Source: a virus
Length of the DNA stretch: 22,358 nt
Strand: one strand, 5' to 3'
IMG/VR virus record: IMGVR_UViG_3300025647_000313
Span: 1 to 22,358 of that record
A program made the position numbers and the translations under genes. A model generated the notes under the pieces. That model was not told the DNA's origin. It made no database searches and was given only the letters and a program-made list of their open reading frames with translations. Positions 5,775 through 21,313 of this stretch are shown here, in pieces; the first letter of the stretch is position 1; each line of letters opens with the position of its first letter.

Positions 5775-5978
5775 ATGATTTACTTACTTGCTTTCTTTTG
5801 GCTTATAATCCTTGTATTGACTTACGCAGTACAAATGGGAAAAGAGGTTAAATTAGCTATTATAAATGGCTTTATGATTGGTGCTTTATATGATGTTGAA
5901 GAAGTAGATGATGAAAAATGGCACACTTTTCAAATTTTAGTAGGTATATTATCAATAAACATTCTATGGGAATCTTAA
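5775..5978 (+). CDS. small membrane protein (67 aa)
   Basis: The 67-residue product begins with a strongly hydrophobic segment (residues 2-18, IYLLAFFWLIILVLTYAV region), has a second moderately hydrophobic stretch (28-39) and a third at the C-terminus (53-65). It is probably an inner-membrane protein with two or three spans. No family is recognised. Length and topology could fit a holin, but no endolysin is nearby and the neighbours are replication and transcription genes, so a holin call is not justified. Its 3' end overlaps the next gene by 13 bases. Confidence 0.6.
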   Translation: MIYLLAFFWLIILVLTYAVQMGKEVKLAIINGFMIGALYDVEEVDDEKWHTFQILVGILSINILWES

Positions 5979-6478
5979 ACAAAGTTGCAAAGTATCATAA
6001 AGATTGGGTTGAATTAGCTTCTGTGTTTGACAAAGATTTTGCAGAAGATATAGTTCAAGAAATGTACTTACTTTTGCATAAATATAATGTAAGTGAAGAA
6101 CAAATGTTTACTAACGGAAAAGTTAATAGAGGTTATATTTTTATAATAATTAGAAATATACACTTTCAATTACATAACATACGTAAGCGAATCAATAAAG
6201 TAGAACTTAATGATGAGATTTATAATTTAGAAGATGACTACGATATTCAAAAAGAGTTAGATTGGAATGATTTTAGAGATAAAGCAGAAGAAGAAGTAAA
6301 CAGTTGGGATTGGTACGAAAAGAAACTATTTACTTTATATAGAGATAATAAAACTTCTATAAGAAAATTAGCTGCTGAAACAGGTATTTCATTTGTTTCA
6401 ATATTTCATACGTTAAAAGATAGTAAAGGTAAGTTGAGAGAATTACTAAAAGAAGATTACAATAATTTAAAACTATAA
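5966..6478 (+). CDS. sigma-70-like transcription factor
   Basis: The 170-residue protein has a sigma region 2-like N-terminus (residues 20-75: FAEDIVQEMYLLLHKY and YIFIIIRNIHF, recalling the D.AEDIVQE..L and ..I.RN patterns of ECF-type factors), an acidic linker and a C-terminal helix-turn-helix (about 131-155, SIRKLAAETGISFVSIFHTL) like region 4. It may redirect host RNA polymerase to later phage promoters. The ATG at 5966 is chosen because it gives the full region 2 with only a 13-base overlap. An in-frame ATG at 5918 would overlap the membrane-protein gene by 61 bases. A DNA-binding regulator without sigma activity is the alternative. Confidence 0.7.
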   Translation: MGILNKVAKYHKDWVELASVFDKDFAEDIVQEMYLLLHKYNVSEEQMFTNGKVNRGYIFIIIRNIHFQLHNIRKRINKVELNDEIYNLEDDYDIQKELDWNDFRDKAEEEVNSWDWYEKKLFTLYRDNKTSIRKLAAETGISFVSIFHTLKDSKGKLRELLKEDYNNLKL

Positions 6479-10239: not shown

Positions 10240-10697
10240 ATTTTAAAGAAATAATACTAAAAGAAACAGGAATAGATATTACAAAGAAATGTAGAAAAAA
10301 AGAATACATAGAAATGAAAGCTTGTACTTCTTATGTAATGAGAAAAATGGGGTTTCAATATACTGAAATAGGTAAGTATATGAATTTAGACCACTCTACA
10401 ATTATCCACCATATTAAAATATATGATGCTATGAGGTTTTCAAGTGCAAGAGTTCAAGATATGGAAGATATATTGCTGGGCAAGTCAACAACTGCTTCTA
10501 AAGAAGTTAAGAGGTTAGAAGAAATTATTTATAACCAAAAGAAAATGATTAATAATTTACAAATGCAAATAGCAACAGTTGAAAACAACAATATCAAAAG
10601 ACTAATACCATTACTAAAGAATAAAGATATAGAGGTTAAGTTTAATGCGTTTGTAGAATTAAATGAAAAAGCTAAATTTTATCCTAAATTTAATTAA
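10236..10697 (+). CDS. protein with DnaA domain IV-like DNA-binding motif
   Basis: The 153-residue protein carries, at residues 21-62, a pattern like the DNA-binding domain IV of DnaA: ..A...YVMRKMGFQYTEIG followed by LDHSTIIHHI (51-60), which corresponds to the DnaA signature DHSTVLHA. A coiled coil follows (about 88-118), then a mixed C-terminal region. It lacks the AAA+ ATPase domain, so it is not a full DnaA. Proteins of this kind may bind DnaA-box-like sites to regulate replication or transcription. It sits 0.5 kb downstream of the hairpin-rich gap at 9576-9709. The motif is clear; the biological role is inference. Confidence 0.8.
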   Translation: MNFKEIILKETGIDITKKCRKKEYIEMKACTSYVMRKMGFQYTEIGKYMNLDHSTIIHHIKIYDAMRFSSARVQDMEDILLGKSTTASKEVKRLEEIIYNQKKMINNLQMQIATVENNNIKRLIPLLKNKDIEVKFNAFVELNEKAKFYPKFN

Positions 10698-10755
10698 CTA
10701 TATGCTTAAACAATTAAAACATCTATTTTTAATAATTTATACTTAAATACATATA

Positions 10756-10962
10756 ATGAAAAGATACACAACAAATGATATATTTTCTGATTTATTCTTT
10801 AAAGAAAATTGTACACAAATAGAATTTGGAAATAGAATAGATTTAGACAAACATTCAGTTTCAGATTGGGTTAAACATAAGAACCAAATTAGATTTAACA
10901 AGTTAGAAGAAATAGCTGAAAAATTAGGTAAAAGAGTAATAATTAAAATAGAAGATAAATGA
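10756..10962 (+). CDS. small helix-turn-helix DNA-binding protein (68 aa)
   Basis: The 68-residue basic protein has an XRE-like helix-turn-helix layout: QIEFGNRIDLDKHSVSDWVK (about 21-40) gives the two DNA-binding helices, then NKLEEIAEKLGKRVIIKI. It probably acts as a small transcriptional regulator. The 58-base AT-rich gap upstream has no exact TAnnTTTG box, though a promoter may be hidden there. Its stop overlaps the following ATG (ATGA at 10959-10962). It lies just before the packaging genes, so it could control late expression, but there is no direct evidence. Confidence 0.65.
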   Translation: MKRYTTNDIFSDLFFKENCTQIEFGNRIDLDKHSVSDWVKHKNQIRFNKLEEIAEKLGKRVIIKIEDK

Positions 10963-13806: not shown

Positions 13807-13833
13807 AAGCAATCAGAAATGGTTGCTTTTTTT
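13807..13833 (+). terminator. Rho-independent terminator
   Basis: The stem AAGCAATC/GGTTGCTT (13807-13814 with 13821-13828, one T-G pair) has loop AGAAAT and leads into a T tract (13827-13833). It ends the three-gene unit that begins at the 13191-13250 promoter. The next 43 bases to the tail chaperone contain TTATTTT/AAAATAA dyad symmetry (13853-13871) that could be an operator. Confidence 0.85.
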
Positions 13834-13876: not shown

Positions 13877-14548
13877 ATGAAGATTGATATTAAAATTCCA
13901 GAAACTTTAAATGAAATTACTTTATCACAATATCAGAAGTTTGATAAGTTAACTAAAGATAATGAACAAAGTGATTTTGTGAATCAAAAGACAATTGAAA
14001 TATTTTGTGGTATAGATTTAAAAGATGTTGCAAGAATTAGGTTGGCTGATGTAAGCGAAATACTTTTACATTTAGACAACGTTTTAAAATCACAAGCTAA
14101 ACACGTTTTAAAGTTTAAACTAAACGGTAAAGAGTTTGGTTTCATTCCTAAAATAGAAGATATAACATCAGGGGAATATATAGATTTAGAAAACTATTTG
14201 AGTGATATGCAAACAATGCATAAAGCTATGGCAATTTTATATAGACCAATTACTGCACAAACAAATGGATTGTATGTAATAGAAGAATATACAGGTGCTG
14301 ATAAGTATAGCGATGTAATGAAACAAATGCCTTTAGACGTTGCTTTAGGTTCTATGGTTTTTTTTTACACTTTGCTGAACGACTGCGTGAACGGTTTGAT
14401 GGACTTTATACACAACGAAGTGGAACAATCGGAATCAGCGAAGAATCTTTTGGAAAAAAATGGGGTTGGTATCAATCAATCTATGCAGCAAGTCAAGGAG
14501 ATGTTCTCAAATTTGATGCCGTCACAAAATTACCAATTACACAATTAA
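13877..14548 (+). CDS. tail assembly chaperone, short zero-frame form (223 aa)
   Basis: The 223-residue product begins with MKIDIKIPETLNEITLSQYQ, a start typical of Bacteroidota phage tail assembly chaperones, and continues with an FNxGKEF-like strand pair and mixed helices to residue 160. After a run of nine T bases at 14358-14366 the zero frame continues for about 60 more residues (hydrophilic, ending at 14548). The last part overlaps a second open frame (see the frameshift form). Tail assembly chaperones bind the tape measure protein. In many phages a short and a frameshifted long form are made at a fixed ratio (lambda gpG and gpGT). Confidence 0.7.
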   Translation: MKIDIKIPETLNEITLSQYQKFDKLTKDNEQSDFVNQKTIEIFCGIDLKDVARIRLADVSEILLHLDNVLKSQAKHVLKFKLNGKEFGFIPKIEDITSGEYIDLENYLSDMQTMHKAMAILYRPITAQTNGLYVIEEYTGADKYSDVMKQMPLDVALGSMVFFYTLLNDCVNGLMDFIHNEVEQSESAKNLLEKNGVGINQSMQQVKEMFSNLMPSQNYQLHN

Positions 14549-14619
14549 TGACTTGGTTATTATTTGAAAAAGAAAAAACTGAAATAGAAATGAAAAATAT
14601 AAAAAGAAATGGTATATAG
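13877..14619 (+). CDS. tail assembly chaperone, long -1 frameshift form (247 aa)
   Basis: Codons 1-163 are shared with the short form. A -1 shift within the nine-T run (re-reading 14365) opens 84 further codons up to TAG at 14617-14619, overlapping the next ATG (14609) by 11 bases. The extension carries KKWGWYQSIYAASQGDVLKF, LPITQLMTWLLFEKEK and a basic end. This W...I..A.GD..K...I..LP....L..L...K.K layout matches the T domain of long tail chaperones. The shared region 14366-14548 is open in both frames and is visibly richer in G and C (about 40% by hand count over 14367-14460). A base miscount in the T run is the main alternative. Confidence 0.72.
14358..14366 (+). promoter_or_regulatory. 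poly-T slippery sequence (9 T)
   Basis: Nine T bases lie at codons 161-164 of the tail chaperone (GTT TTT TTT TAC). In this run the tRNA can re-pair in the -1 frame, T TTT TTT, and transcriptional slippage is also possible. I see no strong downstream stem or upstream Shine-Dalgarno-like stimulator by eye. Confidence 0.65.
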
Positions 14620-15034
14620 TTTAATAAACAAAATAAAAGAAGCGTTACTTGAAGAACCTTTTGTAAATACTGCTACTGATGGAAACATATTTGATGTTGA
14701 TTTAAGTAAGCAAACAATCTTTCCCTTATCACACATAATGATAAACAACGCTACACACCAAGGAAATGTTATTAGCTTCAATATAACTATCTTAATGATG
14801 GATATATTAAATCAAAAAGACGATAGTAATAAAGTTGATGTTTGGAATACACAAATGGCAATAGGTGTTAGAGTGTTAGACAGATTAAATAGAGGTGATT
14901 TAAGAGATGACTTTTGGGAGTTAACAGGTTCTCCAAACTTTGAACCATTTACAGAAAGATTTGAAAATGATTTAGCAGGTTGGGCTGTTACATTTGATGT
15001 ATTAGTTCGTAACGATATGACAATTTGTAATTAG
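14609..15034 (+). CDS. probable tail terminator / neck protein (141 aa)
   Basis: The 141-residue acidic protein has a layout I recall from Bacteroidota phage neck or tail-completion proteins: DVDLSKQTIFPLSHIMINNA (residues 29-48), FNITILMMDILNQKDD, a central W, then FEPFTERFENDLAGWAVTFDV and a cysteine near the end. It starts inside the long frame of the chaperone gene (11-base overlap), typical of morphogenesis operons. It is followed six bases later by a gp10-like gene. The exact role (tail terminator or head-tail joining) is not certain. Confidence 0.55.
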   Translation: MVYSLINKIKEALLEEPFVNTATDGNIFDVDLSKQTIFPLSHIMINNATHQGNVISFNITILMMDILNQKDDSNKVDVWNTQMAIGVRVLDRLNRGDLRDDFWELTGSPNFEPFTERFENDLAGWAVTFDVLVRNDMTICN

Positions 15035-18776: not shown

Positions 18777-18912
18777 ACTAATTATTCAAATGATGGAGTT
18801 TCAAAAGATTGGAACAAGCGAAGCTATTGACATAGCAAAAGGGAAATACAAACTACCAACTAACATTAAAGAATTTAAACAACAATTAAAATGGCAATTG
18901 AAAAAACAATAA
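18769..18912 (+). CDS. small basic protein (47 aa)
   Basis: A 47-codon frame overlaps the end of the large structural gene (8 bases) and the start of the tape measure gene (22 bases). Its product is basic and helical (MLKLIIQMMEFQKIGTSEAI, then KEFKQQLKWQLKKQ). The exact fit between two genes suggests it is real, and similar tiny frames lie ahead of tape measure genes in some phages. Function unknown. Confidence 0.5.
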   Translation: MLKLIIQMMEFQKIGTSEAIDIAKGKYKLPTNIKEFKQQLKWQLKKQ

Positions 18913-20684
18913 ATATAAACGTAGATTCTAAAGATGCTGAAAAGAATTTAGGCAAGGTTGTAAATCAGTTTGAAGGATTAGGTGAAGAAGCAAATAAGTC
19001 AATAAAGAATATTGAAAAAGGTGTTGATGCTGCTAGTAAATCAACTAAATCTTTATCAGCAGGCTTTAAATCAGCAGGTTTAGCATTAAAAGCTATGGGT
19101 GTTGGTTTAGTTATTGAAGCATTTAATATATTAAAAGACTTGTTTCAAAGCAATCAAGTTATTGCTGATAAATTTGGAGCTACATTCAAAGCGTTATCAA
19201 TTGCGTTTAATGACTTCTTTAATTACATTAATAAAAATGCAGGTGGTATTGTAGATTTCTTTAAAAATATATTTGAAAATCCTGTTGAATCTTTAAAACA
19301 ATTTGGACAATTAATTAAAGAAAACATAATTGAAAGGTTTAATAGTGCTTTAGAAGTTGCAGGTTTTGTTGCTGATGCATTAAAGAAATTATTTGAAGGT
19401 GATTTTAGTGGTGCTTTAGATTCAATCAAAGAAGCAGGTAAAGAAATGGTTGATGTCTTTACAGGTGTTGATGATACTGTTGGTAAAGTTGGTGATTTAG
19501 CAAACGCAGCAGCAAACTATGCAAAAGAAACTTTTAGAAGTGCAGAAGCACTACAAGCACAAGAGAACGCAGCATTAAGAGCAGTAGCAATTCAAGCAGG
19601 TTTGGTTGAACAATATGACAGACAAGCAGAATTACAAAGGCAAATAAGAGATGATGATACTAAATCTATACAAGAAAGAATTAAAGCTAATGATGAATTA
19701 GCTAAAGTATTAGATGAGCAAGAAAAAGCAATGCTTAAACAAGCTAATTTGCAAGTACAAGCAGCAGCTAATCAATACAGATTAAACAAATCTATTGAAA
19801 ATGAAGTTGCTTTAATAGATGCTAATAATAATGTAAAAGGAGTTCAAGCACAAATTGATGGTTTAAGAAGTGAACAAAAATCAAATGAAATTGCTTTAAA
19901 TAAAGAATCTAATGAATTACTTCAAAGTGAAATTGATACAAGAAACGAATTAAGTTTAAAAGCTAAAGAATTTGAAGAACAACAAGAAACTGACGCAATT
20001 GCTAAACTTGAAAGACAAAAAGAACTTTTAGAACTTCAACAAGAATTAGATTTAGCTGATTTAGAACGTAAAAAACTTTTATATAAAGAAGGTACACAAG
20101 CAAGACAAGATGCAGAAAATGAATATCTTTTAAAACAACAAGAAATTCAACAAGCATTAACTACTAATGAAAAAGAGCAAACAGCAGCAAGAATAACTAT
20201 TGCAGAAGCAGAAAGAAAAGCTAAAGAAGATAATATAAATGCAGTATCTAATTTACTTGGTAATATAGCAAGTCTTTTAGGAGAACAAACTGCAGCAGGA
20301 AAAGCAGCAGCAATTGCTCAAGCTACAATTAGTACTTATCAATCAGCAGTTCAATCTTATCAATCTTTGTCAGGGATTCCAATTATAGGACCAGCATTAG
20401 GGGCAGCAGCAGCAGGTGTAGCAGTAGCAAGTGGTATAGCAAATGTTAAAAAAATATTAGCAGTTAAAACACCAAATGGAGGTGGTGGAGGTTCAGCACC
20501 AACGGCAACTTCGGTACAAGCACCAAACGCACCACAATTTAACGTAGTAGGTAATACAGGAGTTAATCAAATAGCACAAACTTTAGGAAGTCAACAACCT
20601 GTTCAAGCGTATGTAGTTGCAGGAAATGTTACAACTGCTCAATCTTTAAATCGTAACATAATTAATAACGCTACTTTAGGATAA
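18891..20684 (+). CDS. tape measure protein (597 aa)
   Basis: The 597-residue protein has the classic tape measure layout. The N-terminus is helical with repeated KN.EK patterns, followed by a hydrophobic segment (about 65-90, SAGLALKAMGVGLVIEAFNI), a long charged coiled coil (about 215-455), a second hydrophobic segment rich in Ala and Gly (LGAAAAGVAVASGIANVKKI near 497-516), then a Gly-rich linker (NGGGGGSAP) and an Asn/Gln-rich end. It sets tail length; by the usual 1.5 angstrom per residue this is roughly 90 nm, a rule-of-thumb estimate. It lies four tail genes after the chaperone gene that would bind it, and not directly after it, which is unusual. Confidence 0.85.
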   Translation: MAIEKTININVDSKDAEKNLGKVVNQFEGLGEEANKSIKNIEKGVDAASKSTKSLSAGFKSAGLALKAMGVGLVIEAFNILKDLFQSNQVIADKFGATFKALSIAFNDFFNYINKNAGGIVDFFKNIFENPVESLKQFGQLIKENIIERFNSALEVAGFVADALKKLFEGDFSGALDSIKEAGKEMVDVFTGVDDTVGKVGDLANAAANYAKETFRSAEALQAQENAALRAVAIQAGLVEQYDRQAELQRQIRDDDTKSIQERIKANDELAKVLDEQEKAMLKQANLQVQAAANQYRLNKSIENEVALIDANNNVKGVQAQIDGLRSEQKSNEIALNKESNELLQSEIDTRNELSLKAKEFEEQQETDAIAKLERQKELLELQQELDLADLERKKLLYKEGTQARQDAENEYLLKQQEIQQALTTNEKEQTAARITIAEAERKAKEDNINAVSNLLGNIASLLGEQTAAGKAAAIAQATISTYQSAVQSYQSLSGIPIIGPALGAAAAGVAVASGIANVKKILAVKTPNGGGGGSAPTATSVQAPNAPQFNVVGNTGVNQIAQTLGSQQPVQAYVVAGNVTTAQSLNRNIINNATLG

Positions 20685-20761: not shown

Positions 20762-21313
20762 ATGAGTGGTGTTGAAGCTATTAGCGTAGTTGAAAACCCT
20801 GCTATTGAATCTGACTTTGTTGCATTAAAAACAGAAGAAATTAAACTTGCAGAAGTAAGTAAAGAAAAGCGTATTTTAATGGGTGCAGTGTTAATACCCG
20901 AAAAGCCAATTTATAGACGTAATGGAGAAGATGAATATTATATCTATTTTTCTAAAGATACTGTCGTAAAAGCATCGCAATTGTTTTTTAAAAATGGTAA
21001 TCAATCAAATTGGACTTTAGAACATTCTAAACCAATTAAAGGTTTAACTGTTGTTGAAAGTTGGATAGTTGAGGATTTGCAAAAAGATAAAAGTTCTATT
21101 TACAATTTAAGTGTTCCTATTGGTACTTGGATGGCAAGTATAAAAGTTGATAATGATGAAATTTGGAATGATTACGTTAAAACAGGTAAGGTAAAAGGTC
21201 TAAGTTTGGAAGGATATTTTGCCGACAAATTAGAATCTAAAAAAGAATTATCTAAACAAAATGAAGAAGAAATATTAATTGAAAAAATAAAACAAATTTT
21301 AAATAACGTATAA
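20762..21313 (+). CDS. XkdF-like prohead protease (183 aa)
   Basis: The 183-residue protein fits the phage XkdF-type serine protease family, which trims the scaffold and capsid during prohead maturation. Features are AISVVENPAIESDF (6-19), RILMGAVLIPEKPIYR (37-52), WTLEHS (84-89, candidate catalytic His88) and VKGLSLEGYF (144-153, candidate Ser148). The ATG at 20762 is the only one, but the same frame is open upstream from 20717 and reads IIELIIDDKDE, as in family N-termini. The real start may be a non-ATG codon at 20729 (ATA) or 20732 (ATT). It overlaps the next gene by one base (TAATG), and a scaffold-like gene follows. Confidence 0.75.
   Translation: MSGVEAISVVENPAIESDFVALKTEEIKLAEVSKEKRILMGAVLIPEKPIYRRNGEDEYYIYFSKDTVVKASQLFFKNGNQSNWTLEHSKPIKGLTVVESWIVEDLQKDKSSIYNLSVPIGTWMASIKVDNDEIWNDYVKTGKVKGLSLEGYFADKLESKKELSKQNEEEILIEKIKQILNNV

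Follow-up and report, generated by a model that had tools for sequence, protein, structure and literature searches.

In the viral DNA analysed here (22,358 nucleotides, hereafter the window), a run of nine T bases lies within a gene of the tail module, and the sequence 3' of the run is coded in both the zero and the -1 reading frame. The switch of frame at this run is, as judged from sequence patterns shared by a whole family of related loci, most likely caused by transcriptional slippage, and its two products are most likely tail assembly chaperones. This large family is related to flavobacterial phages, and we consider it fairly probable that slippage of the polymerase on the conserved T9/T10 run, rather than ribosomal frameshifting, determines the proportion of the two chaperones. 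Frameshifting in tail chaperones is a textbook example of ribosomal recoding, so a recoded tail chaperone is already known, while the signal and the probable mechanism described here are likely to be new: the open-licence literature yielded no account of a tail chaperone gene on which the polymerase slips.

The T run and the two reading frames

The zero-frame gene (13877–14548, + strand) encodes a G-like product of 223 residues, belongs to a family conserved in 284 loci and matches PHROG 32199 (E 1e-14). The slip run occupies exactly the position given in the earlier note, 14358–14366 (+ strand), where it is read in the codons GTT TTT TTT TAC, and exceeds every other homopolymer of the window in length. 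From the run onward the -1 frame is open over 84 codons (14365–14616), with a stop ending at 14619, and this conserved C-terminal, T-like domain of 84 residues (14365–14619, + strand) would give a G-T fusion of 247 residues. The next gene (14609–15034, + strand) starts with the ATG at 14609, overlapping the -1 stop by 11 nt, so that the -1 frame indeed runs past the next ATG; the zero-frame stop claimed at 14548 likewise agrees with the open reading frame. The earlier note took the run to be the end of the shared part, and its coordinates stand, with the refinement that the zero-frame protein does not end there: a predicted long helix (residues 153–184) spans the slip point and continues in the zero-frame product. 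A terminator-like hairpin with a T run (13807–13828, + strand) is found immediately upstream of the G-like gene.

The stretch coded in the zero and -1 frames (14367–14548, + strand) has a GC content of 38.5%. Over 14367–14460, where a value of about 40% had been reported, we measured 40.4%, a value that 1.4% of all 94-nt windows reach or exceed; the shared part has 28.3% and the window as a whole 27.3%. Given the -1 protein, the probability that the zero frame stays open by chance is ~0.006 in the window and 0.02 on average in 38 representatives (mostly ~0.01 to 0.02; these per-sequence values are not independent, since the sequences are related), the exception being the Nonlabens phages, with a short zero-frame tail and p 0.24. 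As an open zero frame is expected at the level of about 1% in most sequences, the dual coding 3' of the run is real. The variability of codon positions shifts as well: before the run the variable position is zero-frame position 3 (~0.35, clades A to E), and after it the pattern is mixed and variability generally lower; in several clades this damping is most marked over roughly the 60 nt that follow the run. The -1 domain itself is kept, with invariant residues F3, F29, W35 and L65 in 61 sequences, and is predicted to form four helices (pLDDT 78.5). The proposal that the bases after the run serve both frames is therefore borne out, and both frames are conserved in the relatives. In the third frame, 147 of 148 non-redundant members have a +1 stop no more than a few codons away from the run, represented in the window by the TGA at 14376–14378 (+ strand), which would truncate the products of 8-T or 11-T sequences. 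Such stops would suit insertions and deletions made in both directions, although they may also simply result from dual coding.

Conservation of run length in the family

Among 284 related loci with a readable site (148 non-redundant, with identity down to ~26%), the run has nine or ten T's without exception: T9 in 262 and T10 in 17 in the phase of the window, and T9 in four and T10 in one in the other phase, with no 7-T or 8-T run in the set. This is far beyond chance. An initial scan had given 80 related loci, each of them with exactly nine T's, phased alike, and with the -1 frame open. Since 117–119 of the loci were obtained with a pattern itself holding nine T's, only the loci found through the protein are free of this bias (80 + 80 viral loci, two genome loci and the Nonlabens phages), and the T9/T10 rule holds there as well. 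All matches to the 9-T motif are family members. Dedicated scans for the 7-T version and for the 8-T version shortened at the 3' side revealed no member with such a site, and a looser, broader 8-T scan, the only one to cover the variant shortened at the 5' side, found none among the 120 matches listed. Members with T10 have compensating codons that preserve the frames, and there is no scatter of out-of-frame lengths. In three non-redundant members the codon after the Phe pair begins with C, and there the preceding codon is TTT rather than NTT, so the count remains nine. Some relatives carry an additional T9 about 500–600 nt upstream of the slip run.

The isolate phages of Nonlabens, P12024S and P12024L, carry genes only 26.5–27.3% identical to the window gene. 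Their gene pairs _38/_39 and _40/_41 belong to the same family and differ in being annotated as two hypothetical genes and in the shorter zero-frame tail, which has only 28 residues from the first run codon on. Reading P12024S base by base, we found T9 in the same phase together with the -1 domain, so genes annotated in isolate phages as two unrelated hypotheticals can now be joined. These isolates and a Bacteroidetes genome bin suggest that the host of the window virus belongs to the Bacteroidota. An annotated sigma-70 region 2 protein is found upstream of the terminase in a Nonlabens relative, and in the window the ORF at 5918–6478 looks sigma-factor-like by eye. Flavobacterium phage 6H gp10 (10352–10927, 191 residues), which, judging by its length, is probably the BFVD entry related in fold to the G-like protein (E 5e-5), has a neighbouring -1 ORF, yet it contains only T6, with a -1 stop directly 3' of it; the T9 device is therefore not general to all flavobacterial phages.

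Polymerase or ribosome as the origin of the frame switch

In the mechanism that we propose, a single start would lead to two proteins, the zero-frame product of 223 residues and, less often, the product of 247 residues with the helical C-terminal domain. RNA polymerase would slip on the T9 run (A9 in the template) and add one U, so that transcripts with 10 U encode the 247-residue protein; alternatively, it could lose two U, and transcripts with 7 U would encode 246 residues. Transcripts with 8 U or 11 U would meet the +1-frame stop at once, and the bases 3' of the run would encode both C-terminal tails. The G-like and T-like products would then act around the tape measure protein as tail assembly chaperones. 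The sequences themselves establish the run, the conservation of both frames and the constraint on run length; from there on, the occurrence of slippage, its origin in the polymerase, the ratio of the products and their chaperone role are inferred. If correct, the chaperone ratio would be fixed in the mRNA pool, independent of the host ribosome.

The length of the run fits this proposal. A run of about nine or more A or T, the hallmark of programmed transcriptional slippage, is present in 284 of 284 loci; T runs longer than eight have been used as the criterion for transcriptional slippage (PMC3711429), and nine A or T allow efficient slippage by bacterial RNA polymerase (PMC5009743). Individual bases are fixed as well. 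Bases 2, 5 and 8 of the run show no change in the 131, 131 and 128 members, respectively, where a change would be silent, while nearby silent sites upstream of the run have changed at least 8–58 times on the tree (131 T9 members in the main phase), a doubly silent site within the overlap 20 times, and other Phe columns of the gene show at least 19–29 TTT/TTC changes each.

The main alternative is that proposed in the earlier note, a programmed -1 shift of the lambda type, in which two Phe-tRNAs slip on T_TTT_TTT. Both routes have the same main product of 247 residues, and we regard the ribosomal one as a real, if lesser, possibility. The heptamer is present in the zero-frame phase in every member, and the extra T's would on this reading merely follow from the flanking residues. 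The residues on either side of the Phe pair are indeed always V/L/I/F and Y/W/L/F/S/C, and comparable aromatic columns are T-initial at 0.71–0.97, so hydrophobic and aromatic residues do account for some of the conservation of T at the flanks of the run. Base 8 speaks against it: its change from T to C would alter neither protein in 128 of 148 members and would leave U_UUU_UUC, which in E. coli is shift-prone just as U_UUU_UUU is (PMC4066793), but this change never occurs. That U_UUU_UUC should be tolerated at the site is an expectation from E. coli rules and not a strict definition, and these heptamer rules may fail for Bacteroidota ribosomes. A preference for TTA over CTA among the Leu codons of the -1 frame (0.42 against 0.13) reduces the number of changes expected at base 8, though hardly to zero. 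A ribosomal heptamer requires seven T's; sites with 7 or 8 T did not appear in the motif scans (for 8 T, partly among the matches listed). Neither of the usual stimulators was found: downstream RNA structure gives no signal over shuffled sequences (mean z -0.31 for 50 nt and -0.04 for 90 nt), and an upstream Shine-Dalgarno-like motif is seen in only 9 of 132 members, without a pattern. Ribosomal shifting is classical for phage tail chaperones, where stimulators are sometimes absent, and shifts of the lambda type can do without one (PMC5009743). The anti-Shine-Dalgarno is hidden in Bacteroidia ribosomes (PMC8710568), which may make Shine-Dalgarno-stimulated shifting a rarer option; yet prfB frameshifting persists in Bacteroidia. 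Taken together, the unbroken run of at least nine T, the unchanged doubly silent base and the lack of a stimulator favour slippage of RNA polymerase over the ribosome; of the earlier proposal, recoding at the run is supported, and its ribosomal mechanism is the less probable of two options.

Two further readings would do without recoding or without one of the frames. The -1 ORF might be a separate gene with a start of its own, which is how the pairs in P12024S and P12024L are annotated, and some ATG, GTG or TTG codon does occur 3' of the run in 45 members. In 135 of the 141 members scored, however, the open -1 stretch is free of ATG as far as the conserved W motif, which makes shifting the simplest way to reach this frame, and the run is invariant, with the -1 frame conserved from right behind it. 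The -1 stop overlaps the start of the next gene in 113 of 123 scorable members, in 71 of them as ATGA. A separate gene is thus very improbable and we reject it. Homopolymers are generally error-prone in sequencing, and the run could be phase-variable or truly 8 or 10 bases long, with one of the frames spurious. This is hardly credible and was also rejected: length and phase agree across loci from many assemblies and an isolate phage, both frames are under constraint, and all 284 readable loci keep their frames with T9 or T10, the latter with adjusted codons, which also answers the concern about a miscounted run.

A family apparently needing an unbroken T9/T10 would show that transcription can be the step at which the output of short and long chaperone is determined. 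Such a family further offers natural dual-coded slip sites, where the contributions of polymerase and ribosome are separable by a mutation silent in both frames.

Probable chaperone role, neighbourhood and known systems

Architecture and position make a G/GT-like tail-chaperone role likely. The G/GT chaperones bind the tape measure and tail tube proteins and are absent from virions, and their ratio matters. As in G/GT, there are two overlapping ORFs, the second frame-shifted, joined at a slippery site, and the gene belongs to the tail module, where four genes separate it from a tape-measure-like gene further downstream. The product of the latter (18891–20684, + strand) matches PHROG 3336, tape measure, with E 1.6e-14, its best match being phrog_21537, virion structural protein (1.2e-24). 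Of the label of T-domain and tail chaperone given in the earlier note, the conserved -1 domain stands, and the chaperone part draws on architecture, position and weak fold matches; Pfam, NCBIfam and PDB gave no match. Searches of solved structures by sequence or fold gave no match for the zero-frame fold or the T-like domain. The zero-frame protein is modelled by AlphaFold with a pLDDT of 81.6, and its predicted fold has strong matches among phage proteins lacking characterisation, as well as weak BFVD matches, with E of 0.12 and 0.13, to a named tail assembly chaperone and to a chaperone of the tape measure. PHROG 166, 'tail protein', is matched by 7 of 65 members.

The analogy with lambda drawn in the earlier note is well founded as regards recoding at the run, the dual-coded stretch and the C-terminal domain in the -1 frame. 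In lambda, gpG/gpGT are produced at a lambda-type heptamer, whereas the window family uses a pure T9/T10 run, for which the evidence favours slippage of the polymerase; the two lack detectable sequence homology, and in the window family four genes precede the tape-measure-like gene. Thermus dnaX and Shigella mxiE and spa13 are similar in having a coding run of ~9 A or T that gives two C-termini. Unlike them, the window gene is a phage morphogenesis gene, with candidate slippage conserved across a whole phage family.

Elsewhere in the window, the region from the terminase to the tail genes contains no recognisable portal gene. The ORF at 1736–2779 weakly matches T4 beta-glucosyltransferase (PF09198), with an E of 4.5e-4 that falls short of the curated cut-off, and the tape-measure-like gene is followed by a protease-like gene (20762–21313, PF14550).
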